From the IMG/VR virus record IMGVR_UViG_3300032180_000001, positions 1 through 64,000 of that record: DNA of 64,000 nt; one strand, 5' to 3'. The stretch's first letter is position 1; each line of letters opens with the position of its first letter. Positions 4,254-60,066 of this stretch are shown here, piece by piece. The notes below the pieces were generated by a model. It saw only the letters and a list, made by a program, of their open reading frames with translations, was not told where the DNA came from and ran no database searches. The DNA is from a virus. The translations under genes and the position numbers were made by a program.

Positions 4254-4436
4254 CTAGCTTACCCTGCCCTGCAGGGCTGACCACGGAACAACAACCAGGC
4301 GCGTGCCGGGAACCTGGTATGAATCTTCTGATTCCTCAAGCTGCGCGATCAGCGCGTCGAGCCGGGCGATTATCCGCTCCACGGTCTCATTCATCTGCTT
4401 CGTAATCTCCCGCCTATCGTCATCATCACTTGGCAC
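4254..4436 (-). CDS. Small protein with VPW tail motif
   Basis: A 60-aa acidic, helical protein (ETVERIIARLDALIAQLEES) that ends RLVVVPWSALQGRVS. The VPW motif near the C-terminus recurs in more than a dozen otherwise different small proteins of this window. It overlaps the end of the polymerase gene's neighbour frame by a few bases and is likely co-transcribed with it. Confidence 0.55.
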   Translation of the reverse strand: MPSDDDDRREITKQMNETVERIIARLDALIAQLEESEDSYQVPGTRLVVVPWSALQGRVS

Positions 4437-7290
4437 TGCACTCGCCCCAGCTCATACCCGCAGTCATATCTGAAATTATAGGCACGTCCCGCCACATGAA
4501 GGTCATGGCTCGCTGTACCTCCCGCGCGACCTCAAGCGCATCACGCTTCAAGCAGCTTACCAAAATCTCGTCGTGGACCATCACCCGCAGCATCGGCAGG
4601 ATCTCCCGCGGCAGCCGGAGCAGCGCCTCGCCCATGATGTCCCGAGCCCCTCCCTGGCCGAGCAAAGCTGGGGCAACCGTGTACGCACGATCCGGATCAC
4701 ACATCATGCGCCTGCCGAACCCGTTATCCAGGATTTCCCCGGCCTTGCCGCGCGCCCTGATATCCTCCCGCCAGGCGATCAGCTGCGGGTAGTTGGCTTC
4801 CATTCCGGCGATGAAAGCATAAACCTTTTCCGGGTCCAGGCCATTGGCGATCATCCGCTTCGCGCCGAGCCCGTAATTCCAGCCGTGCGAGATGGCCTTG
4901 GTCGCCTGACGGCTGATGCCGATCTTGGCGGCGTTCTCCTTGTGCGCATCATTGGGCTTGCCATCCGGGCCGAAACCGAACAGCGCCATGTACGCGGGGT
5001 CCTGACAGTGCCCAGCGATGGCCCTCATATCAACCTGGGCCAAGTCAAAACTCATCAGGATATGACCCTCGTCGGGGAGAAAGATATCCCGCTCGTGATG
5101 CTTGCCGTCATGCTTGCCGAATACGGTCAGGCCTGGGTTAGTCACCGACCACCGGCCGGATGCCTGCCGGAAAGAATTAACCGGATGCACCCGCCCGTCC
5201 GGGCAGAGGCAGTCACTGGCAGTTCCGTAAACTGACCTGGTCTTGGTAACGATCTCCATCAGCTTCAGCGCCGCCTTGAGATCGCCGGGGCATTCCGGCC
5301 GAACCGCTATCTTATTCAGATCATCGGTGCCGATAGATAGCTTTCCCTTAGCCGTCAGCGGCGGATCGGATACCTGATAGCGCTCCCATATCCTGGCTAG
5401 CCATTCCCTCCCGGCATTTCCGCTTAGGGGGGAATCAACGGTTTCCTCTGATTCAGTTTTTTTCGACCCTCTGCCCCGCATGACTTTTCTCGTCAGCGGG
5501 AGCCCCCACCCTGCGTGCAGGAGATCGAGGGCCTCGCGCTTGCGATTCTCGCCTGCCTCCAGCCGTTCTGTCAAGAGCCTCGTGTCAACCCGGAAACCGT
5601 TGAGGCTCATCCGGCCGGCGATCGCGGCTAGCTGGTGCTCCCGCCGCAAATACGGGTCGGCGTCCAGGTAACCTCCGATGCGCCCGGCCACCGCGGCGGT
5701 CGCCCGCAGGTCACCTTCCAGGTAGCTCCGGTACTCCGGATCGTCGAGCGGGATCTTGTCCCAGCCGCCGTGCTTGCGCTTCAGCCGCATCGCCGAATCA
5801 CTATTATGCGTAACAATGCAGTGCTCAGTAACATACAGGGAGTCGACCGCATCCACGTAAAGACAGGTAACTTCCGCCTGTCCCTCTAGCTCAATGGAAT
5901 TAATTATCCGCTTTGGAATTTTATGACCATTTGGCTCCCAGCCGCTGCGAGTAAGAAATGGATTTATCGGAATATTAATAGTCAGCTTATAACTCGGCTG
6001 CCCCGTGCGCGTTTCTCCCCGATAAGTATACTTCGGTGCTTGCTTGATACTCTTGCGCGCCGTACCGCCAAATGATTCTACCAAAAAACGCACCTGATCG
6101 GTCAAATTTTCTGACGCCGAGGAGAATCTCGTATTCAATCCTCCACGGTAAACTCCATCCTGCGTCCGATACAACTCGCCATCGGTATCCATCAAACCTC
6201 GGAGCAGGTCAAGCCGCTGATTAGCGCTAGAGTAAAGATAGTTATCCGGGATGAACTTACCCTCTGCCCGCTTCCCCCAGAGGCCCATTTCTTTAAGGGA
6301 TTCCTTGATCGGATTAACGAAACGCCACCCGTTAGGCAAACTTCCTCGCTTTCCGTCAGCTCTGCTTATCCTGTATTCAGGCAGCCTTTTACCATACCTA
6401 TAGGAAGCAAGAACTAGGTTAGGAGGCAGACGCCGTTCAACCTCCGCAGGTACCAGCAAGTCACCGGGAGTAAATCTTACCGCCTGAGTTAGAGCACCAT
6501 CTCCCAAGAGAACGCCTAGAATATACGGATCGATCGGAAGTTTTCTGCGCACCATCTTCACGGGAGCGGATACAAGCGGAATAGCCCATCTAGGTTTTCT
6601 ATCACTACTTGCTGAAAGCAATGTCATCAATTCAAGAGTACTGATATCTCGGAACTTAACACCATGTTGTCCGTAGTACGGAGCGGCGGTCCACAAGTGA
6701 TCGCCGTCAGCCAAAATACTAGTCCGGTCATCAAAAGTCACACGATAAACAGAAAGCACCCCACGCCTATAGGTATTAAGAACCTGAACAGGTAGACCAT
6801 TACTTCCGATCACCATATCGCCAGGTACCAGATCCTCCACAGAAACGAAACCCTGCGGTGTAAGAATTCCTGTTCCATGGGGATGTCCCTTTCCCTCAAC
6901 GCCACAGCGTTCCGCCACGCTGGTCAGATCGTAGGAATCCTGAGTATGCGCGGTGTCCCGGGAACGGGGCGGCCACACCTGACGGGCAACCAGCTCGGTG
7001 TCGCAGGATTTCGCGGCCAGGAATTCATAATCTGCGCCATGATGCCAGGCGAGGGCCGGAAGATCAAAAGAACTGGAATTGTGCCCGGTAATCCGGTCAG
7101 CGGATTTCAGCTCGTCGATCAACTGCGAGACGGGAACGATGCGCGGCACTGCCGGGCTGCTGTCAGCGCCGTTCGGACCGAGGGCGCCTGCCAGCCGGAC
7201 GAAGCCCGTGTCGTCGTGCGAGACGTACCGGAACAGCTCGTCGGCACTCCCGGTCTCCAGGTCGAAGACGACCTCGCTACCGCGAGTCAT
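4426..7290 (-). CDS. Family A DNA polymerase (3'-5' exonuclease plus polymerase) interrupted by an intein
   Basis: The 954-aa precursor has a DnaQ-like proofreading domain (ExoI FDLETG at residues 9-14, ExoII GHNSSSFD about 69-76, ExoIII YRSYLEGD about 520-527) and a Pol I palm: motif A (LMSFDLAQVDMRAIAG), motif B (RQATKAISHGWNYGLG) and motif C (VMVHDEIL). A 360-residue intein (137-496) lies between ExoII and ExoIII; after splicing the polymerase would be about 594 aa. It is preceded by the iteron-rich region and the primase-helicase, so it is almost certainly the replicative polymerase of this element. Confidence 0.95.
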   Translation of the reverse strand: MTRGSEVVFDLETGSADELFRYVSHDDTGFVRLAGALGPNGADSSPAVPRIVPVSQLIDELKSADRITGHNSSSFDLPALAWHHGADYEFLAAKSCDTELVARQVWPPRSRDTAHTQDSYDLTSVAERCGVEGKGHPHGTGILTPQGFVSVEDLVPGDMVIGSNGLPVQVLNTYRRGVLSVYRVTFDDRTSILADGDHLWTAAPYYGQHGVKFRDISTLELMTLLSASSDRKPRWAIPLVSAPVKMVRRKLPIDPYILGVLLGDGALTQAVRFTPGDLLVPAEVERRLPPNLVLASYRYGKRLPEYRISRADGKRGSLPNGWRFVNPIKESLKEMGLWGKRAEGKFIPDNYLYSSANQRLDLLRGLMDTDGELYRTQDGVYRGGLNTRFSSASENLTDQVRFLVESFGGTARKSIKQAPKYTYRGETRTGQPSYKLTINIPINPFLTRSGWEPNGHKIPKRIINSIELEGQAEVTCLYVDAVDSLYVTEHCIVTHNSDSAMRLKRKHGGWDKIPLDDPEYRSYLEGDLRATAAVAGRIGGYLDADPYLRREHQLAAIAGRMSLNGFRVDTRLLTERLEAGENRKREALDLLHAGWGLPLTRKVMRGRGSKKTESEETVDSPLSGNAGREWLARIWERYQVSDPPLTAKGKLSIGTDDLNKIAVRPECPGDLKAALKLMEIVTKTRSVYGTASDCLCPDGRVHPVNSFRQASGRWSVTNPGLTVFGKHDGKHHERDIFLPDEGHILMSFDLAQVDMRAIAGHCQDPAYMALFGFGPDGKPNDAHKENAAKIGISRQATKAISHGWNYGLGAKRMIANGLDPEKVYAFIAGMEANYPQLIAWREDIRARGKAGEILDNGFGRRMMCDPDRAYTVAPALLGQGGARDIMGEALLRLPREILPMLRVMVHDEILVSCLKRDALEVAREVQRAMTFMWRDVPIISDMTAGMSWGECSAK
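5803..6882 (-). mobile_element. Intein with LAGLIDADG endonuclease, class 3-like
   Basis: Precursor residues Pro137 to Asn496. The N-terminal block (GTGILTPQGFVSVEDLVPGD) follows extein residue His136; the C-terminal block is CIVTHN with +1 Ser497. Position 1 is Pro, not Cys or Ser. The block B region has DHLWT (His198, Trp200), block F has VTCLYV (Cys476) and block G has Thr494: together the Trp-Cys-Thr set that defines class 3 inteins. A dodecapeptide homing endonuclease is present (ILGVLLGDGAL, LLRGLMDTDGEL). The DNA is visibly AT-richer than the flanking exteins, consistent with recent transfer. Confidence 0.85.
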
Positions 7291-7672
7291 TATTCACTCA
7301 CCTCTCGCCAAAAACATACTTTCCGTAACCTGTCCACTGCTAACAGTGCGGGTGGGTTCAGCGGGTGGGTCAGTTTCCGAGCATGAAAGTTCTACTTCGC
7401 CGGCTGAGTCGGCTTTCCAGGTATTTTCTGCACCTCGGTGGGCGGGTGGGTTGCCAGTTCTAAAAGTCCGCGCACATGCATGCATGCATGCGCACGCGTG
7501 TCGCGCCCAGGCGCATGCACACACGCGCATGCGGACTTTGAGTATGTTGTAACCCACCCAACCCACCCACAGAGAGTAATAGCAGGTCAGGAATTTATTT
7601 CCGGGTGGGTTACCCTCCTGGAAACCCACCCTGTAACCCACCCAGGCTGATCTAACCCACCCGCTCATCACA
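7291..7672. repeat. Iteron-rich non-coding region, candidate replication origin
   Basis: This 382-bp gap between primase-helicase and polymerase has no credible gene. It holds nine copies of GGGTGGGTT or its complement: plus-sense at 7350-7358, 7363-7370 (8 of 9), 7444-7452, 7603-7611; minus-sense at 7551-7559, 7560-7568, 7623-7631, 7635-7643, 7654-7662. In the middle lies an alternating purine-pyrimidine stretch and an inverted repeat. Iterons beside replication genes are the usual layout of an origin, hence this inference; a regulatory role in the replication operon is the alternative. Confidence 0.6.
7463..7539. repeat. Inverted repeat around alternating purine-pyrimidine DNA
   Basis: AAAGTCCGC (7463-7471) and GCGGACTTT (7531-7539) are perfect inverted arms. 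Between them are GCATGCATGCATGC and ACACACGCGC-type alternating tracts, which are prone to unusual DNA structure and easy to melt or bend. It sits inside the iteron region. Confidence 0.6.
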
Positions 7673-10234
7673 TTAATCACGCTGCGCAGTCTCATAAACA
7701 CGACGACGGATCTTCCAGAGACTCCGCCCATGGGATTCTCGGTGCAGCTCGGTCCCGATAAGCCCGGCCAGCCGACGGCCCAAGACCCTCGTACTGTGAA
7801 TGTGCGGGTGGTAGCTGCCAGCCCAGAGGTTGTACTGGGTAAGCAGGTCTCCGATATCTGTTTCCTCTGCGTGAGGAAGCACGCCCGGACGGTCACCGAC
7901 ACTCATCTCATCCATCAGCCACACGGACAGGTCATCGGCCTGGTCGGCTGCTTCCAGGAACGCCTTCGCCGCTTCCGCGGGGGCATCGTCCATCGTTCCG
8001 GACAGCGGATCCTCCAGCACCTTCGCAGCTGATCTCATCAGCATGGCGAGGATAGCGGGTGCCTCAGTGCGGAGAGCAGAAAGGGCGGCATTCGTGGCAG
8101 TGCGTATTCCTTCCAGGTCCGTGCACGCATGAGGAATGGAAACAACGCGTGCCCGGACAGCCGGATCATCATAAGGGAGAGAGACATCGGGATTCAGCGA
8201 AACCATAAAGGTGTGATGCGGCTCGAAGTCCGCAGGATCGCAGTAGAGCAGCCGAGCCTTGAATCTCTGGCCACCGGTTAGCTTCTTCAGTCGGGTACGG
8301 GAGATTTTTCCTTTCCTGTCGCTCCATTCATCTAGGTAGACAAGCCGAGAACCAGGAACGGGACCGAAGGCGCGAGCCGTTTCGATCGTGCCGTCGAACA
8401 GGTCGTCTTCAATGTCTGTCGCGTACCCGGATCCGGTGCCTAGCGCGAAGGAAAGACACCGCGCTAGGCTGCTCTTGGCCGTGTTCGCCGGTCCTCGCAG
8501 CTCGATGATGCCAGCTCGTTTGTCTGTTTTCCCGTGCACAATATGACCGAAGACGCGCAGTGCCCACGTCCGGATTTCCTCGTCGGGGTAGATGGCTTCC
8601 ATCAGGGCCTCGAAGCAGGGCGCTGTTCCGGTGAAGTCCGGTGCGCAGGGTGCGTTCTTCAGGTGCGGAATACCACGGCCGTCTTCTTCTTCCATGGTGC
8701 GCAGATTCCAGAGCCGCCCGCCGGCCCACAGTAGCTCGTCAGCGGAATCCAGGTCTTCTCCTTTAACGACGGCTCCGTGCGCTGCGGCCAGTCGCGCCAT
8801 CTGATGACCAAGGGCAGTATTACCTGAGTCTGACCGGAGTTTCGTTCGTGCGTCGTTACATCGCTTGACTACCAGGGCAGCATCTTTCTGGCTTGCTGTT
8901 ACCGCCTTGTTGTGCGCTTTTACCGCATCGGCTGCTGCCTTGTTCCGCGCTTTCACCGCCGCTTTATCAGCCGGGCTTGCTCCGATAGGAGCTATTTCGG
9001 GCTCGGGTGGGTCCTGGATTTCACCATCGGCGGGAAGGTCAGTGACGACGGGGCAGAGCGCACCGAGCGCCGCGACGTATGTTCCTGCTTCAACTGTCTC
9101 CCAGACGGGACCGCGGTCAGCGATCCATCCTCCGATGCCGGGCGCGTACGCCAGGGTGCCGACAACTCGCCGGAGGATCTCGTCCGCGATCTGGGTCTCG
9201 TCCCAGGAAGTGAGCTGGAACGGTCCGCCTGCGGCCATCTGTTCGTAGGGAGTGGGCGGCCGATCGGGAGGGTATCCGTTGCCGTTGTGACCCGAGCCGT
9301 TCCCGTTGCCCCCGGCGCCAACTCCCGCCATTTCCTGCTGCGGAATGAAAGCTTGCGCTCGCGCCACCCGTTCCGCGATGCTCTCCGGAGTCGCCCCGGT
9401 CCCGGCGATGAGCACGTCCCAGGCATCCCGGTCGTTCACCGCCTCCCAGTAAGCGTCCTCGACTTTCGCTGACCAGTGCCGGTCGAAGTCGGCGTCCGTC
9501 CACTCAGCGTCCACCGCATACTGGATGCGCAGCCATTCCGGGTACGCCTCCTCGCGGCTTAGCCCGGCCCGTGCCATACTCATCACGCAGGCCGAGAGCG
9601 TGTTGTCGTCGGTTACGCAGGCATCTGGCATGTCCCGGGTCCAGCCGCTCACCGCTCCCGTTGCCACCCCATGTCCGTTGGCATTCTGCGGGGGCGGGAA
9701 AAGGATCCTGCACTCAGTCTTGTCGGCTTCCACGGCGCTCACCAGGCTGCCAGACCAGGGCAGCATAATTCCCGGATGCGGCAGGTAATCGGGTTCGCCG
9801 CGAACAAAACCACTGGTTTTCAGGTCGTACGGCCAGTCATGTGTCGCCCATTGAGTCGGCCATTCACCCGGCCAGGCTCTGCCATCAAGATAGACATGTC
9901 TTTTCTCCGCACCGCCGGCTTTTACCGCGCCACGCAACTGATCGAGAAGCGGTTCGAGCAGCGCGCCGATGGCGGTAGAGCCGAAGCCAGCCAGGCGGTC
10001 GATGTCGACGGCGATTAGGCCGGAGGCGCGGCTGGTAACCAGGCCCCAGCCGTGGTGCGGGACGCTGCGCGCTGGCGGGGTGACGCTGCCGTAGCTGAAG
10101 CCTTCGTAACTGAAGCCTTTCAGCAGGCTCGGCCTCTTGGCTCCGTTTTCGTCGACAAAATAGGGGATATAAGTGAACCGGAAACTTTCCTGGCTGGTGG
10201 CTGCGCCTGCGGAAGGCTCATGATCGGGTACCAT
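7673..10234 (-). CDS. Bifunctional primase-polymerase / P4-type (D5) helicase
   Basis: The 853-aa protein has an N-terminal prim-pol domain (GLVTSRASGLIAVDIDRL, with the catalytic DxD-like VDID about residues 75-80) and a C-terminal superfamily 3/D5-like helicase: Walker A GPANTAKSS, Walker B RLVYLDEW, and a sensor region FMVSLNPD. A Gly/Asn-rich linker (about 305-320) separates the halves. SD AGGAAG precedes the ATG. Such fusions prime and unwind phage or plasmid origins; the adjoining iterons and polymerase fit this role. Confidence 0.9.
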   Translation of the reverse strand: MVPDHEPSAGAATSQESFRFTYIPYFVDENGAKRPSLLKGFSYEGFSYGSVTPPARSVPHHGWGLVTSRASGLIAVDIDRLAGFGSTAIGALLEPLLDQLRGAVKAGGAEKRHVYLDGRAWPGEWPTQWATHDWPYDLKTSGFVRGEPDYLPHPGIMLPWSGSLVSAVEADKTECRILFPPPQNANGHGVATGAVSGWTRDMPDACVTDDNTLSACVMSMARAGLSREEAYPEWLRIQYAVDAEWTDADFDRHWSAKVEDAYWEAVNDRDAWDVLIAGTGATPESIAERVARAQAFIPQQEMAGVGAGGNGNGSGHNGNGYPPDRPPTPYEQMAAGGPFQLTSWDETQIADEILRRVVGTLAYAPGIGGWIADRGPVWETVEAGTYVAALGALCPVVTDLPADGEIQDPPEPEIAPIGASPADKAAVKARNKAAADAVKAHNKAVTASQKDAALVVKRCNDARTKLRSDSGNTALGHQMARLAAAHGAVVKGEDLDSADELLWAGGRLWNLRTMEEEDGRGIPHLKNAPCAPDFTGTAPCFEALMEAIYPDEEIRTWALRVFGHIVHGKTDKRAGIIELRGPANTAKSSLARCLSFALGTGSGYATDIEDDLFDGTIETARAFGPVPGSRLVYLDEWSDRKGKISRTRLKKLTGGQRFKARLLYCDPADFEPHHTFMVSLNPDVSLPYDDPAVRARVVSIPHACTDLEGIRTATNAALSALRTEAPAILAMLMRSAAKVLEDPLSGTMDDAPAEAAKAFLEAADQADDLSVWLMDEMSVGDRPGVLPHAEETDIGDLLTQYNLWAGSYHPHIHSTRVLGRRLAGLIGTELHRESHGRSLWKIRRRVYETAQRD

Positions 10235-10389
10235 CCCACTTCCTGACTAGTTCTGCGGTGGCACGCAAAAAATTTCTGCAAATTTCTGCGCGCCTGGCCG
10301 CCAAACCTGATAATGCGGTAGCCCTGCGCTTCGATGGCGCGCTGCCTTTTACAGTCTTTTGCTCGATCGTTAATTTCTATCGCGTTCAC
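10120..10389 (-). CDS. Small basic protein overlapping the primase start
   Basis: A GTG at 10389 overlaps the stop of the upstream RHH gene (GTGA), implying coupling. The first ~55 residues (NDRAKDCKRQRAIEAQGYRI and IRFGGQ) resemble the tail of small nuclease-like proteins of the DUF559/Vsr type, but no catalytic residues are present. The last third overlaps the primase start by 115 bases, which is unusual. It may be a remnant or a short translated leader. Confidence 0.4.
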   Translation of the reverse strand: MNAIEINDRAKDCKRQRAIEAQGYRIIRFGGQARRNLQKFFACHRRTSQEVGWYPIMSLPQAQPPARKVSGSLISPILSTKTEPRGRAC

Positions 10390-10589
10390 GACGCCGCCTC
10401 AAGCTCTTCCGCTTCCTCGGCCTGCTCTCGCTCCGCCTCACCGCCAAGAGCCTGCTCCAGGAGCACGATGATCGTGGCGTTGACCGAGCGGCGGTCGGCG
10501 TCGGCACGTTCACGGAGCCGGTCACGCAGATCACGGGGCAGCCGCACCTGAGTATTGATGAGGTCTGCGGCGTAGGTTGAACGAGTCAT
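10386..10589 (-). CDS. Ribbon-helix-helix (Arc/MetJ-type) DNA-binding protein
   Basis: A 67-aa protein: TQVRLPRDLRDRLRERADAD is a typical beta-strand plus helix A, followed by RSVNATIIVLLEQAL as helix B. The C-terminal Glu/Ala tail is likely disordered or coiled. RHH proteins autoregulate operons; here it heads the primase-polymerase run, so control of the replication operon is a fair inference. Confidence 0.75.
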   Translation of the reverse strand: MTRSTYAADLINTQVRLPRDLRDRLRERADADRRSVNATIIVLLEQALGGEAEREQAEEAEELEAAS

Positions 10590-10638
10590 AGGTGGATCAG
10601 TCTAGTCCCGCCGTCCTCCTTGCGGAAGCGAAGTCTGA

Positions 10639-10950
10639 CTAGACCCTTACAGACTCCGTGCACACCCGGCACAGGGCCTTCGCGCCGCGCTTCTTCAGCT
10701 CCCGTTCGGTACGCAGGGTGCCCGGCCAGGTGCCTGCCAGCTCGAACCCGATCCCCTGCAGGAACGCGATCCGGGTGATGGCCGATCCTGCCGTGCCGTT
10801 GGCGTGCCTCTTCAGCCGTGCGTCCAGGTTCGTCGTGAAGCCGATGTAATGCTGCGCCGACCGGCCATTCCAGGGGCGCTTGTAGTGAAGGAGGTAGCAT
10901 GTACCTATGACATCTGAGCTGCTTGACCTGGGACTTTCTGAGTCAGACAT
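10639..10950 (-). CDS. GIY-YIG nuclease domain protein
   Basis: A 103-aa protein with the GIY-YIG core: GTCYLLHY (GIY equivalent), HYIGFTTNLDARLKRH (YIG plus catalytic Arg), and a basic TERELKKRGAKALCRVC end. It resembles single-domain GIY-YIG proteins of actinobacteria and phages. Its first 44 bases overlap the start of the opposing HNH gene, so its original 5' end may have been altered by that insertion. Confidence 0.75.
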   Translation of the reverse strand: MSDSESPRSSSSDVIGTCYLLHYKRPWNGRSAQHYIGFTTNLDARLKRHANGTAGSAITRIAFLQGIGFELAGTWPGTLRTERELKKRGAKALCRVCTESVRV

Positions 10951-36439: not shown

Positions 36440-36777
36440 GCCTGACCGATGCTGAAAGAGAAACTATAATATCCATGTCCGACGCGGGTGATACCGCTCA
36501 GATCTACTCATCGCAGCGGCGGATCATAACAAAGCTCAAAAAGAATGCCGCCGCCGTTCTTCTCGACGAAGGCACCTTCGAAGGCAGCGCGTGGGCGAAA
36601 TTCGAGATGCCGAGAGCGTTGATCAGTTTCCGGTCGACCACGATTAAGCGGGAGATGACCGACGAGCAGCGGCAGGCGGCGGCCGAGCGGTTCGCCAAGT
36701 ACCGGGCCGGTTCCGCGAATAACCTTGACGAGGGTGGTACGGATGAGGATAATGAGGCAGATGAGGATGATGAGTAA
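36436..36777 (+). CDS. Small protein with acidic tail
   Basis: A 113-aa protein: YSSQRRIITKLKKNAAAVLL, FRSTTIKREMTDEQRQAAAE, then an acidic tail (DEDNEADEDDE). Such tails are seen in DNA mimics and chaperone-like proteins, but nothing more can be said. Its end overlaps the signal-peptide start of the PstS-like gene. Confidence 0.65.
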   Translation: MSLTDAERETIISMSDAGDTAQIYSSQRRIITKLKKNAAAVLLDEGTFEGSAWAKFEMPRALISFRSTTIKREMTDEQRQAAAERFAKYRAGSANNLDEGGTDEDNEADEDDE

Positions 36778-37816
36778 GAGAACACGTTTCGGGCTGACGG
36801 CCCTCGCCCTCGCCCTGGCAGCAACGCTGACCGCGGCACTGGGCGCGCAGGCTACGACGGTGAGCGGCACCATCAACGCCGCCGGATCAGTCTTCCAGGC
36901 TAACTTCCAGCGGCCTGCCATCGCGGACTTCAAGTCGGTCGACCCCGGTGTCACGGTTCACTACAGCGCGGTTGGCTCGATCACGGGCCGAGCCGACCTG
37001 TACGCGAACCGGGTGCTGTTCGCCGGCTCTGACTCGCCGATTCCGGCCAGCGAGAAATACCGGATTCCCAAGGGCAAGACGGTTCTGTACTTCCCGGTGC
37101 AGTTCGGCCCGATCGCACTCGCGTACAACCTGCCGGGCGTGACAGGCCTGAAGCTAACCCCGGCCATCATCGCCGGGATCTTCCAGCACACGATCACCCG
37201 GTGGAATAACCCGGCAATCAAGGCCCTTAACCCCGTTTCGCCCCTGCCGTCAACTCTGATCACCCCTGCCGTCCGCTCCGATTCCTCCGATACGACGGCA
37301 AACGTCTCCCAGTACCTTATCGATGCGGCAAGCAGCACGTGGAAGCTCGGCACGGGCGAGACCATCACGTGGCCGACGACGGACCGCAAGGGCACCGGTG
37401 AAGGCGGCGTTGCTCAGATCGTCAAGACCACTCCCGGTGCCATCGGGTACATGGATTACGTGACCTCTAAGTTCGCCGGGCTGAGCACCGCGCTGATCAG
37501 GAACCGGGCCGGCGCTTATGTCGCACCAACAACCGCGTCAGCCTATGCAGCCGCAACGCACGTCATCCCGAACGCCAGCCTGACGTTCCTGACGCTGAAC
37601 GAGCCGGGCGCGGATTCCTACCCGATCACCTACCAGTCATGGGACCTGGTATACGCGCAGCAGCCGAGCGCCATCGACGTAACGCTGCTCCGGGCTTACC
37701 TCGGCTACCTGCTCGGCACGGGCCAGAATCTGCTTCAGGTCCTCTACCTCGCGCCGCTGCCTGCGAGCATCGACAAGGTCGCCAGGACGCAACTGGGTAA
37801 GATCCTGCACAGCTAA
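36770..37816 (+). CDS. PstS-like phosphate-binding protein (secreted)
   Basis: A 348-aa periplasmic-binding-type protein: signal peptide SKRTRFGLTALALALAATLT; INAAGSVFQANFQRPAIADF; VGSITGRADL; LFAGSDSPIPASEKY; ITRWNNPAIKAL; SDSSDTTANVSQYL; GAIGYMDYV. These are the typical PstS substrate-site blocks (phosphate-contacting Ser and SDSS). No permease genes follow. Could scavenge phosphate for the infected cell or be a surface protein. Several ATGs are clustered; 36770 is preferred. Confidence 0.8.
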   Translation: MSKRTRFGLTALALALAATLTAALGAQATTVSGTINAAGSVFQANFQRPAIADFKSVDPGVTVHYSAVGSITGRADLYANRVLFAGSDSPIPASEKYRIPKGKTVLYFPVQFGPIALAYNLPGVTGLKLTPAIIAGIFQHTITRWNNPAIKALNPVSPLPSTLITPAVRSDSSDTTANVSQYLIDAASSTWKLGTGETITWPTTDRKGTGEGGVAQIVKTTPGAIGYMDYVTSKFAGLSTALIRNRAGAYVAPTTASAYAAATHVIPNASLTFLTLNEPGADSYPITYQSWDLVYAQQPSAIDVTLLRAYLGYLLGTGQNLLQVLYLAPLPASIDKVARTQLGKILHS

Positions 37817-53783: not shown

Positions 53784-54700
53784 AGCTGAGAATGAGATAT
53801 CTTGCGACTTGCCTCATCGCAGGGATATTTGGCCTAACCGCATGTCAGAACTCTGATCCGCCACCCGCTGCTTCGGCTCCGATTACTGTGGTAAAACCGT
53901 CTGCATTCGTAACCGGAGTTTTCGCTCCTGGCACCCCGCGGTCGTATGCGCCGATATCGGCGTTCGCTACAGAAACAGGTACGAAGCCACACCTGATATT
54001 GACGTATCCCGGGTTGGATGACTTTTCGGCCACGTTCGCTAGCACCGTGTCCGCTAATGGCCAACTGCCCGTCATGCAAATAAATCCCGGCAATATTCGC
54101 ATGTCATCGATTACTAAGGGTGGCATCGATTGGTGGGCAAACAGGTACGCCATGCAAGTGCGTGCCTATGGCAAACCAGTAGTGATCGGATTCGCGGCCG
54201 AGGCCAATGGCACCTGGGATCAGTGGGGGCGCGGGCATACCTCACCTGCAGACTGGGTGGCAGCATGGCAGCATATTGTCACTGTCTTCCGCCACGACGG
54301 CGCAAACAACGTGATCTGGTTGTGGACTATCAACGCCGTCAACCTGCACGCCACCCGCTCATCGCCGCAGCCCTGGTGGCCGGGCGCGTCGTACGTGACG
54401 TGGGTCGGGATTGACGGCTACTACTACTTCCCAGGCGAAACCTGGTTGTCGGTATTCGGCGCTACCATCACCGATATCCGAACGTTTACCGGAAAGCCAA
54501 TCCTCATCAGTGAGACCTCGGTCTCTCCCTCGTCTGCCGCTCCCGCTCAGATCACCGAACTTTACGCAAATGCCAGGGCTGCGGGGGTTATCGGCGTGAT
54601 CTGGTCGAATACGACCATGAATAAGCCCCCGTATCATGTCCGCCAGGGGCTGGCCGGCGATCCTGCCATGCTAGCCGCCTACAGAAAGGCCGCGAAATGA
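53780..54700 (+). CDS. GH26-like glycoside hydrolase lipoprotein
   Basis: A 306-aa lipoprotein (lipobox GLTACQN). The barrel has GFAAEANGTWDQWG with the acid/base Glu and ILISETSVSP with the nucleophile Glu, and VGIDGYYYFPGETW between, as in GH26 endo-beta-mannanase-like enzymes. It may trim or release the polymer made by the module, or degrade host or rival glycans. Confidence 0.75.
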   Translation: MKLRMRYLATCLIAGIFGLTACQNSDPPPAASAPITVVKPSAFVTGVFAPGTPRSYAPISAFATETGTKPHLILTYPGLDDFSATFASTVSANGQLPVMQINPGNIRMSSITKGGIDWWANRYAMQVRAYGKPVVIGFAAEANGTWDQWGRGHTSPADWVAAWQHIVTVFRHDGANNVIWLWTINAVNLHATRSSPQPWWPGASYVTWVGIDGYYYFPGETWLSVFGATITDIRTFTGKPILISETSVSPSSAAPAQITELYANARAAGVIGVIWSNTTMNKPPYHVRQGLAGDPAMLAAYRKAAK

Positions 54701-55944
54701 AGCTTCTCATCTACGGTCAGGGCTACGTCGGCCTTCCGCTCGCTCAGCAGGCCGTCAGGGCAGGCATGGATGTCATGGGCTGCGATGTCAGCGAAGAACG
54801 AGTTCGCGCACTTAATGCCGGGCGTTCGCCTGTCGGTGATCTGTCCGATGATGACTTGGCGACTATGCTCTTCGGTGGGTTCCGTGCGGTAACCAGCCCT
54901 GAACCAGGATATCAACCGGATGTCATCGTTATTTGCGTGCCGACGCCACTGTCAGAATTCGACGGACCGGACCTGTCCATGGTTTGCGATGCTGCCTCGC
55001 AAGCCAGCCTGTGGCTTGATCACGGCACCCTGGTCGTGCTCGAGTCAACGTCCTACCCCGGCACTACCGAAAACGTCGTGCGCCCGATTCTCGAAACAGG
55101 GGGACTGACCGCCGGAAAAGACTTCGCGCTAGCTTTCTCACCCGAGCGCATTGATCCCGGTAACCCGGTGTACGGGCTGGCCAACACGCCCAAAGTAGTT
55201 GGCGGCATCACGCCGGAATGCACGAGGAAAGCTGCGGAGTTCTACAGCCTGATCTGCAAGGAAGTAGTGCAAGCCAAATCAGCCCGCGAGGCGGAAATGG
55301 CCAAGCTGCTGGAAAACACCTACCGTCATGTCAACATCGCACTGGTCAATGAGATGGCAATCTTTTGCCACGAGATGGGCATAGACCTACGCGACGCCAT
55401 CCGCTGCGCGGCGACCAAGCCGTTCGGGTTCCAGGCTTTCCAACCAGGGCCTGGCGTGGGCGGCCACTGCATTCCGATCGATCCCAATTACCTGTCGCAT
55501 GAAGTGCGCCGGCAGATGGGCTATCCATTCCGGTTCGTTGAGCTGGCACAGGAGATCAACAACCGGATGCCCGCGTACGTGGTGACTCGGGCCGCAGAAC
55601 TACTGAACAGCCACGCAAAGCCGCTGAACGGTTCGACAGTGCTGCTTCTAGGCGTCACCTACAAGCCGGACATCGCTGATCAGCGAGAATCCCCGGCTCC
55701 ACACATTGCACGCAGGCTGCGCAGGGCTGGGGCGATCATCCGCTACTCTGATCCGCATGTGCCGCAGTGGGCAGTGGACGGGCATAGCGTCAGACAGCAG
55801 GAAACACCTGCAGGAGACCTGATCATCGTGCTTCAGCCGCATCGGCAGTTCGACCTGAACGCCGTCTCCCGCGGGCTGTACTGCCCGCTCGTGCTCGACA
55901 CATCCGGCTGGGTACCAGTCAGCCCGATCGTTACCCAGCTATGA
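54697..55944 (+). CDS. UDP-glucose/GlcNAc-type nucleotide-sugar dehydrogenase
   Basis: A 415-aa protein: GQGYVGLPLAQQAVRAG (NAD site), VICVPTPL, SPERIDPGNP, K...ENTYRHVNIALVNEMA, PGPGVGGHCIPIDP (catalytic Cys), GVTYKPDIADQRESPA. This is the UDP-Glc/UDP-ManNAc 6-dehydrogenase family, producing a UDP-uronic acid. It would supply substrate to the GT2 synthase. Coupled to the GH26-like gene (ATGA). Confidence 0.9.
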   Translation: MKLLIYGQGYVGLPLAQQAVRAGMDVMGCDVSEERVRALNAGRSPVGDLSDDDLATMLFGGFRAVTSPEPGYQPDVIVICVPTPLSEFDGPDLSMVCDAASQASLWLDHGTLVVLESTSYPGTTENVVRPILETGGLTAGKDFALAFSPERIDPGNPVYGLANTPKVVGGITPECTRKAAEFYSLICKEVVQAKSAREAEMAKLLENTYRHVNIALVNEMAIFCHEMGIDLRDAIRCAATKPFGFQAFQPGPGVGGHCIPIDPNYLSHEVRRQMGYPFRFVELAQEINNRMPAYVVTRAAELLNSHAKPLNGSTVLLLGVTYKPDIADQRESPAPHIARRLRRAGAIIRYSDPHVPQWAVDGHSVRQQETPAGDLIIVLQPHRQFDLNAVSRGLYCPLVLDTSGWVPVSPIVTQL

Positions 55945-59023: not shown

Positions 59024-59569
59024 ATGACAGTAAAGACTAAGGCTTTCAAGACCGCTGATGAGTATATTGCCCAGCGGCTCGACGGCGGCGTTCGTGATCC
59101 GGGCGTTATCGCGAAAGAGATGCTCGGCGATCCGGATCTGCGGAGGCTGCTCGTCGCGGTGGTGCGCTCGTACGTGTCCAACAGGATCCGCAGCCGGGTG
59201 CGGGCGATCGAGAACTCGGCCGGGCGGGGGGATGAGGTCCAGGCCCATTACGATAGCCAAAGACGCCACGGCCTCATCTCCCCCTCTGGTCGGCAAGACC
59301 CCGGTCGGCCAATCAACGCCGCTTTGCACCAGCGCGACCTTCTGGGTGAGCGCCTCTCCATCCCGAATCACGGGTACGTGCTGTACGCCGACCTGACCGT
59401 GGAGATGCTGGAACTGCGCATCGAATGGCTGGAGTCGATTAACCGCGGTAACGAACGGTCGATTCGTTACTACCGCTTGCTTATCGCGGAAATTCAGGCG
59501 GCCGGCGTGCAGACCCTGGGTGAGGCGGTAGCGGCCGGCGTCGTGCTCCGCGACGAGGGAGCCGCCTAG
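59024..59569 (+). CDS. Array-nested 181-aa protein of unknown function
   Basis: Starts MTVKTKAFKTADEYIAQRLD with a purine-rich leader (AAAAGGGAAAAATAA). Two parts: a small helical N-terminal domain (GVIAKEMLGDPDLRRLLVAV, VRSYVSNRIRSRVRAIE) and a C-terminal helical region (LTVEMLELRIEWLESINRGN). No nuclease or RNA-binding motif recognised. Because it lies between array blocks 1 and 2 it may be part of the system, or simply a phage gene into whose flanks the units have spread. Confidence 0.75.
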   Translation: MTVKTKAFKTADEYIAQRLDGGVRDPGVIAKEMLGDPDLRRLLVAVVRSYVSNRIRSRVRAIENSAGRGDEVQAHYDSQRRHGLISPSGRQDPGRPINAALHQRDLLGERLSIPNHGYVLYADLTVEMLELRIEWLESINRGNERSIRYYRLLIAEIQAAGVQTLGEAVAAGVVLRDEGAA

Positions 59570-59573
59570 AGCC

Positions 59574-60020
59574 GGAGCGGTCCGGTCCATCGGGTGAACG
59601 AAAGCCATGGGTCCAGCGGCCGGGTCGCTCCTTAACAACTGAACAGACTTCCCCGCAGGTCCAAAACGCCGACGATAGCCATCGCCGTAACGGCTCGCGG
59701 AGAACAAGAACAGCCCGGTCCAAGGTGGCCACGAAAGCCATTGAATCTACGGCCGGGCTGACAACTGAACAGACTTCCCCGCGGGTCCATTGGTGAAACG
59801 ACAGCCACACTTCGAACGGCCTGCGGGGAACAAGAACAGCCGGGTCCAACCCCTTTACGACAGCCAATCACCCTACGGCTCGGCTGCACAACTCAATAGA
59901 CTTCCCCGCGGGTCCATCAGCGTGACGATAGCCAGTGAGCGAACGGCCTGCGGGGAACTAAGACGAGCGACCCGGTCCACCGTTCCTACGATAGCCATGG
60001 CTCAAACGGCCGGGTCGCCC
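59574..60020 (+). ncRNA. Guide-like hairpin array, block 2 (7 units)
   Basis: Units (A/B 8-mers): 59574-59631 tcgggtga/tgggtcca (closing GCGG for ACGG); 59650-59703 aaacgccg/tcgccgta; 59711-59760 aggtggcc/ttgaatct; 59776-59829 ttggtgaa/cacttcga; 59837-59886 accccttt/atcaccct; 59903-59956 tcagcgtg/gtgagcga; 59967-60018 ccgttcct/tggctcaa. Stem types alternate perfectly, beginning and ending with the GGCCCGG type. Linkers are also conserved (ACAACTnnACAGACT one way, GAACAAGACGAGC the other). All variable parts are 8 nt, the core 10 nt. Confidence 0.9.
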
Positions 60021-60066
60021 CATAACTTAATAACCATCGTTCATGAAACAGGAAAAGGTAATCACG

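Follow-up and report, generated by a model that had tools for sequence, protein, structure and literature searches.

Where does a 185-kb virus begin to copy its DNA, and which of its proteins would find the place? The question is raised by a non-coding gap in the window, the whole stretch of DNA analysed here, which is the first 64 kb of the 184,980-b IMG/VR virus record IMGVR_UViG_3300032180_000001. The gap lies between primase-helicase and polymerase genes, as had been predicted from the sequence, and the gene order on the minus strand is RHH protein, primase-helicase, gap, DNA polymerase I. The features of this neighbourhood are the following:

4426..7290, minus strand, DNA polymerase I (family A, polA), downstream of the gap, with an in-frame intein; PF00476, E 7.5e-24

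7291..7672, no strand, non-coding gap, proposed replication origin; 382 b without an accepted gene, from the primase-helicase stop codon to the polA start

7673..10234, minus strand, primase-helicase of D5/SF3 type, 853 aa, proposed self-loading initiator; phrog_1156, E 2.5e-40, with phages' primases found by tblastn and a family profile that leads to 7ola

7694..7834, minus strand, C-terminal winged-helix-like domain of the primase-helicase (residues 801-847), proposed iteron reader; from alignment to relatives' C-termini and a model

10386..10589, minus strand, Arc/CopG-type ribbon-helix-helix (RHH) protein, upstream of the primase-helicase gene; PF03869, E 1.3e-9

The primase-helicase is the only recognisable replicative one of the record, because neither DnaB_C nor DNAG_N has a match anywhere in it. 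Residues 424-826 match phrog_1156, and a Walker A motif (GPANTAKS) is present at residues 581-588, as in an SF3/D5 helicase core. Compared by sequence with the PDB, the window protein alone matches none of 7ola, D5 or C962R. A profile made from its C-terminal half together with relatives matches the SaPI5 primase-helicase (PDB 7ola, E 1.8e-18), poxvirus D5 and ASFV C962R, and the structure model matches C962R and 7ola by fold. Towards the N-terminus there are possible AEP motif residues (IAVDID at 74, GGAEKRH at 107, DLKTSGF at 137). An N-terminal primase domain had no Pfam match and an hhalign probability of 0.9%, and its structure model (pLDDT 35) was discarded. The C-terminal domain is modelled as helix-helix-strand-strand, with a pLDDT of about 70 in the helices and below 50 in the wing.

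The intein of polA is in frame at 5803-6894 on the minus strand (about 364 aa, with LAGLIDADG_3). It resembles class 3 inteins, with Gly and not Cys at position 1, Trp in GDHLWTA, Cys in VTCLYV, Thr before HN and Ser after, and its relatives include phage terminase inteins and an Erythrobacter phage protein (40%). Beside the RHH gene, 10586-10900 on the minus strand encodes a small protein with a GIY-YIG-like stretch, HYIGFTTNLDARLKRH, for which Pfam gave no match at the threshold used.

The gap contains a cluster of iterons in both orientations, spanning 7350-7662:

7350..7358, plus strand, iteron 1, GGGTGGGTT

7363..7371, plus strand, iteron 2, GGGTGGGTC, one change

7444..7452, plus strand, iteron 3, GGGTGGGTT

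7551..7559, minus strand, iteron 4, GGGTGGGTT, abutting iteron 5 at 9-b spacing

7560..7568, minus strand, iteron 5, GGGTGGGTT

7603..7611, plus strand, iteron 6, GGGTGGGTT

7623..7631, minus strand, iteron 7, GGGTGGGTT

7635..7643, minus strand, iteron 8, GGGTGGGTT

7654..7662, minus strand, iteron 9, GGGTGGGTT

In the reading direction of the genes on either side, their order is >>><>><<<. The original prediction spoke of nine copies within 313 bp; span and orientations hold, while the count is more exactly eight GGGTGGGTT and one GGGTGGGTC. The further claim that the copies are far above chance is well borne out: shuffled windows contain 0.44 exact GGGTGGGTT copies on average and never reach 8, and there is no exact copy outside the gap in the whole 184,980-b record. 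One further GGGTGGGTC is found at 9005. When 1,834 windows of 400 b from the whole record are ranked for 7-, 8- and 9-mer count, the window at 7301 comes first in all three.

The cluster is divided by a core that carries both the inverted repeat and the alternating purine-pyrimidine DNA that had been noticed in the sequence:

7453..7550, no strand, iteron-free core of 98 b separating two iteron groups, the largest inter-unit distance

7460..7542, no strand, imperfect inverted repeat or hairpin, 83 b

7469..7501, no strand, longest alternating purine-pyrimidine run, 33 b

The arms of the inverted repeat pair 7460-7471 with 7531-7542 (92%) and 7471-7493 with 7511-7533 (74%). As RNA of the minus strand, the hairpin folds at -54 kcal/mol (z -4.35); the fold as DNA is weaker, at -26.1 kcal/mol (z -2.5). 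The GC content of the core (0.59) equals that of the locus, and the AT-rich core of a SaPI-type origin is not found. The stem-loop of about 100 nt downstream of a replication gene, which is the mark of a pRN1-type origin, is found in the form of the 83-b inverted repeat. A search against Rfam gave no match, and a tRNA search no tRNAs.

Considering these elements together with related loci, a replication origin, as first proposed, is the best-supported reading. From sequence comparison and analogy, we regard it as very probable that the gap 7291-7672 is the origin, with its nine GGGTGGGT(T/C) iterons as predicted double-strand sites at which the primase-helicase binds through its C-terminal winged-helix-like domain. 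The support is comparative and does not come from skew. Cumulative GC skew, named as a check with the original prediction, was run on the whole record and falls almost monotonically, neither placing nor refuting an origin; no skew switch (minimum or maximum of the cumulative curve), as at a bidirectional origin, is seen at the gap. The reading rests instead on iteron clusters found 3' of related genes, on covariation in cluster-K-like phages and on the position of the origin in the SaPI Rep and Cch2 systems. Neither IMG/VR nor the GTDB genomes yielded a usable close relative when searched with the primase-helicase or polA, and phage records had no DNA similarity to the gap or to the first 25 kb. 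Because close relatives of the window virus were not found, conservation of its iterons cannot be demonstrated.

An annotation-free scan scored each 350-b window of the loci around related genes for its best repeated 7- to 9-mer; the scans were designed after the clusters of GMA4, LilyPad and Leopard had been seen. In 13 of 22 other primase-helicase loci (Findley, GMA4, Leopard, LilyPad, RcCronus, R4C, MoiGyank, Angelica, Constance, BIP-1, L202, L209 and L211), the top repeat cluster of the locus falls inside the 500-b zone 3' of the stop codon. The expected share is 9%, which gives a binomial p of 6e-9 that treats related loci as independent; with related loci collapsed by hand, 8 of about 15 lineages are positive (p ~1e-5). 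The margin of the top over the next score is thin for Leopard (9.5 vs 8.6), RcCronus (9.2 vs 8.8) and L211 (8.2 vs 8.0). No top-ranked 3' cluster is present in the other nine loci (Skysand, TP1604, Satis, Pumpernickel, Damien, PotatoChip, L208, G001 and G002); TP1604 has the primase-polymerase order of the window virus, yet no iterons there. Among Angelica- and LilyPad-like IMG/VR loci the top cluster lies directly 3' of the gene in 28 of the 28 scanned, and among Constance-like loci in 6 of 8.

The units vary from phage to phage (CGGGTGCC, GGTTACG, GGTTAAC, CGTACCGTT, ATCTGTnnn, TGTCACT, ACGAGGCAA). They share a mostly mixed orientation and, often, 9-b tandem pairs. The iteron-free core measures 64-136 b in the 14 loci measured, with GC below that of the locus in 13. 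A hairpin core was rejected as a general rule, most relatives being without a significant fold.

Bordetella phage BIP-1 (L166, ~4820-4930) has, 466-570 b 3' of its primase-helicase gene, four copies of ACGAGGCAA arranged as <<>> on the two sides of an AT-rich core of 68 b. A stem-loop 3' of that gene was suggested in the pRN1 paper, which reported no origin-like repeats (PMC4234260).

Among the matches listed for paired GGGTGGGTT in IMG/VR, three phages (G001, G002 and G003; L139, L140 and L141) carry arrays of this unit, with a single orientation and 11/21/31-b spacing. They also carry a phrog_1156 protein; the background of phrog_1156 among the other listed matches is 8 of 50. The common unit is probably a coincidence, because the arrays lie at least 2 kb from the phrog_1156 gene and the G001 protein has no BLASTP alignment to the window protein.

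As for the protein that reads the iterons, the evidence comes from cluster-K-like mycobacteriophages. Their unit is ATCTGTnnn, and in most phages the last three bases are identical across copies; between phages with nearly identical enzymes these bases vary. In a sample of 28 such phages carrying four main unit variants, mutual information with the variant peaks at enzyme columns 845-851, near the C-terminus. N847 is replaced by H in 8 of 8 GCC phages, S848 is limited to ACT phages, and V845 is found in ACT and TCT. Of the 8 patch residues, 4.6 differ between paired phages with unlike variants and 1.6 between those that share a variant, at equal overall divergence. The partial Mantel r between residues 845-852 and the iteron variant is 0.66, with 0 of 20,000 permutations as high, and in all other protein blocks the covariation is nowhere near this. 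The variant class changes 14 times on the tree of the 28 phages. Physical linkage was ruled out as the cause: no covariation is seen for the sequence that separates the patch from the iterons, whether residues 853-872 or the 30 b just 3' of the stop.

Alignment and model place the 845-852 patch in what would be the wing of the C-terminal winged-helix domain. This is strong evidence, drawn from sequences, that in cluster-K-like phages the primase-helicase itself reads the iterons. In the window virus too, the likely reader is the primase-helicase and not the RHH protein; the cluster-K-like enzymes that provided the covariation have C-terminal halves only ~25% identical to that of the window virus enzyme.

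Covariation demonstrates recognition, not initiation. The iterons may bind the primase-helicase and yet serve as a control or incompatibility site, like P4 crr, or as an autoregulatory operator, with the start of replication elsewhere. P4 carries both ori and crr, and the two GGGTGGGTT arrays that G001 and G003 each have, ~10 kb apart, could be compared with this pair. We consider such a role unlikely: there is a single cluster in 185 kb, its position after the gene agrees with SaPI and pRN1 origins, and the core is flanked by two iteron groups, as in relatives. Even less probably, the RHH protein (10386-10589) uses the cluster as its operator or as a partition site. The Arc-type gene is found just upstream of the primase-helicase gene, and RHH proteins bind short repeated operators. 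However, the array is 2.7 kb away from that gene, Angelica and GMA4 have the cluster but no annotated RHH gene beside the primase, and in cluster-K-like phages it is the primase-helicase wing that the iteron sequence follows. Least probable of all is a purely transcriptional element, in which the hairpin would terminate or attenuate transcription between primase-helicase and polA and G-quadruplexes would form from the G-rich units: the coding-strand RNA hairpin is very strong and ends in UUUU, and the 313-b iteron span holds three of the ten strict G4 motifs present in the record, but a terminator scan called no site at the hairpin, termination has no need of two-sided iterons, and relatives with the same layout have units that are not G-rich (ATCTGTGCT, TGTCACT, GGTTAAC), so that G4 formation is not a conserved property and was ruled out as the primary function.

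Islands, satellites and plasmids already provide examples of the kind of origin proposed for the gap. For SaPI Rep and SCCmec Cch2, the known or putative origins have iterons directly downstream of the gene; the C-terminal domain of SaPI Rep recognises iterons, and the isolated C-terminal domain of Cch2 binds such repeats (PMC7581432). The window locus is like them in the D5/SF3 family of the enzyme, by profile and fold (SaPI5 Rep being PDB 7ola), and in having iterons directly 3' of the gene. It differs in the unit, in belonging to a 185-kb phage and not to an island, and in its GC-rich hairpin core. The SaPI origin core is AT-rich, and the gap was not classed as SaPI-type because its own core is not.

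The Sulfolobus plasmid pRN1 depends for its replication on a 100-nt stem-loop that follows its RHH/primase-helicase operon on the downstream side (PMC4234260). The window has the same succession as orf56 and orf904 of that plasmid: an RHH gene, a primase-helicase gene, then a stem-loop of ~100 nt. The pRN1 origin is without iterons (PMC4234260), whereas the gap has nine, and because of their presence it was not classed as pRN1-type. By analogy, the gap may work like both types of origin.

The alpha protein of satellite phage P4 also combines a primase, an SF3 helicase and a winged-helix domain that binds origin repeats, although its primase is of the bacterial Toprim type (PMC4234260) and its unit sequence is different. 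The primase-polymerase of NrS-1 uses sequence-specific template sites, TTTGGTTA and GTGG, with GTGG being efficient (PMC8718748), and the window-virus unit contains GTGG. The NrS-1 sites are for single-strand priming, unlike the proposed double-strand iterons, and only two TTTGGTTA sites exist in its genome (PMC7102993). Finally, cluster K mycobacteriophages (Angelica and relatives) have their ATCTGTnnn cluster directly 3' of the primase-helicase gene, in two groups around a ~90-b core which, unlike that of the window, is AT-enriched and has no strong hairpin. Text searches of the cluster K genome paper find the SAS/ESAS repeats and no mention of the ATCTGTnnn cluster (PMC3203893).

From the analogy with these systems we infer how binding, melting, priming and initiation might proceed if the window virus uses the gap as its origin. 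The C-terminal domain of the primase-helicase would bind the iterons flanking the 98-b core, and SF3/D5 helicase rings would form from the protein molecules on either side of it. The core would then melt in an ATP-driven step, made easier by hairpin extrusion or the alternating purine-pyrimidine tract, leaving single strand exposed. There the primase-helicase could then prime, with GTGG, present in every unit, as a possible template site, and the adjacent DNA polymerase I would extend the primers.

In a broader sense, we lean slightly towards the view that phage D5/SF3 primase-helicases make up a large class of self-loading initiators, for the most part undescribed, in which every enzyme has its own 3' iteron origin and a C-terminal wing of ~8 residues sets the iteron that is read. 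Wing and iterons would often switch together (the 28 cluster-K-like phages show 14 class changes); the code would then be readable from sequence and would define replication-compatibility groups. The window virus would be a member with a GC-rich hairpin core and not an AT-rich stretch. Older work on the origins of dairy phages may have described single cases downstream of a primase gene. As far as open-licence PubMed Central papers show, the new elements are how widely this kind of origin occurs in tailed phages, the covariation between wing and iterons, and the presence of iterons with a hairpin core in the window virus.

To our knowledge, the replication origin is unknown for most actinophages. 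A simple search directly 3' of the D5/SF3 primase-helicase gene for a mixed-orientation repeat cluster would find it in many such phages. The covariation of iteron bases with wing residues amounts to a directly testable specificity code, and it suggests how co-infecting phages keep their replication systems separate.

Other parts of the record gave some further observations. Two genes of the window are possible auxiliary genes, one phosphate-transporter-like (36725-37816, phrog_5385) and one UDP-glucose-dehydrogenase-like (54697-55944, phrog_9148). At 59500-60050 there is a complex array of imperfect repeats, with modules GACTTCCCCGC(A/G)GGTCCA and of the ACGACAGCC type and five copies of GCGGGGAA, which may be a structured RNA or a second regulatory array. 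Lastly, a tandem repeat of ~100 b with six copies of AGCCCGCTG is found at ~95,800 of the record (L010, 11,700-12,300), possibly as coding repeats in a structural gene.
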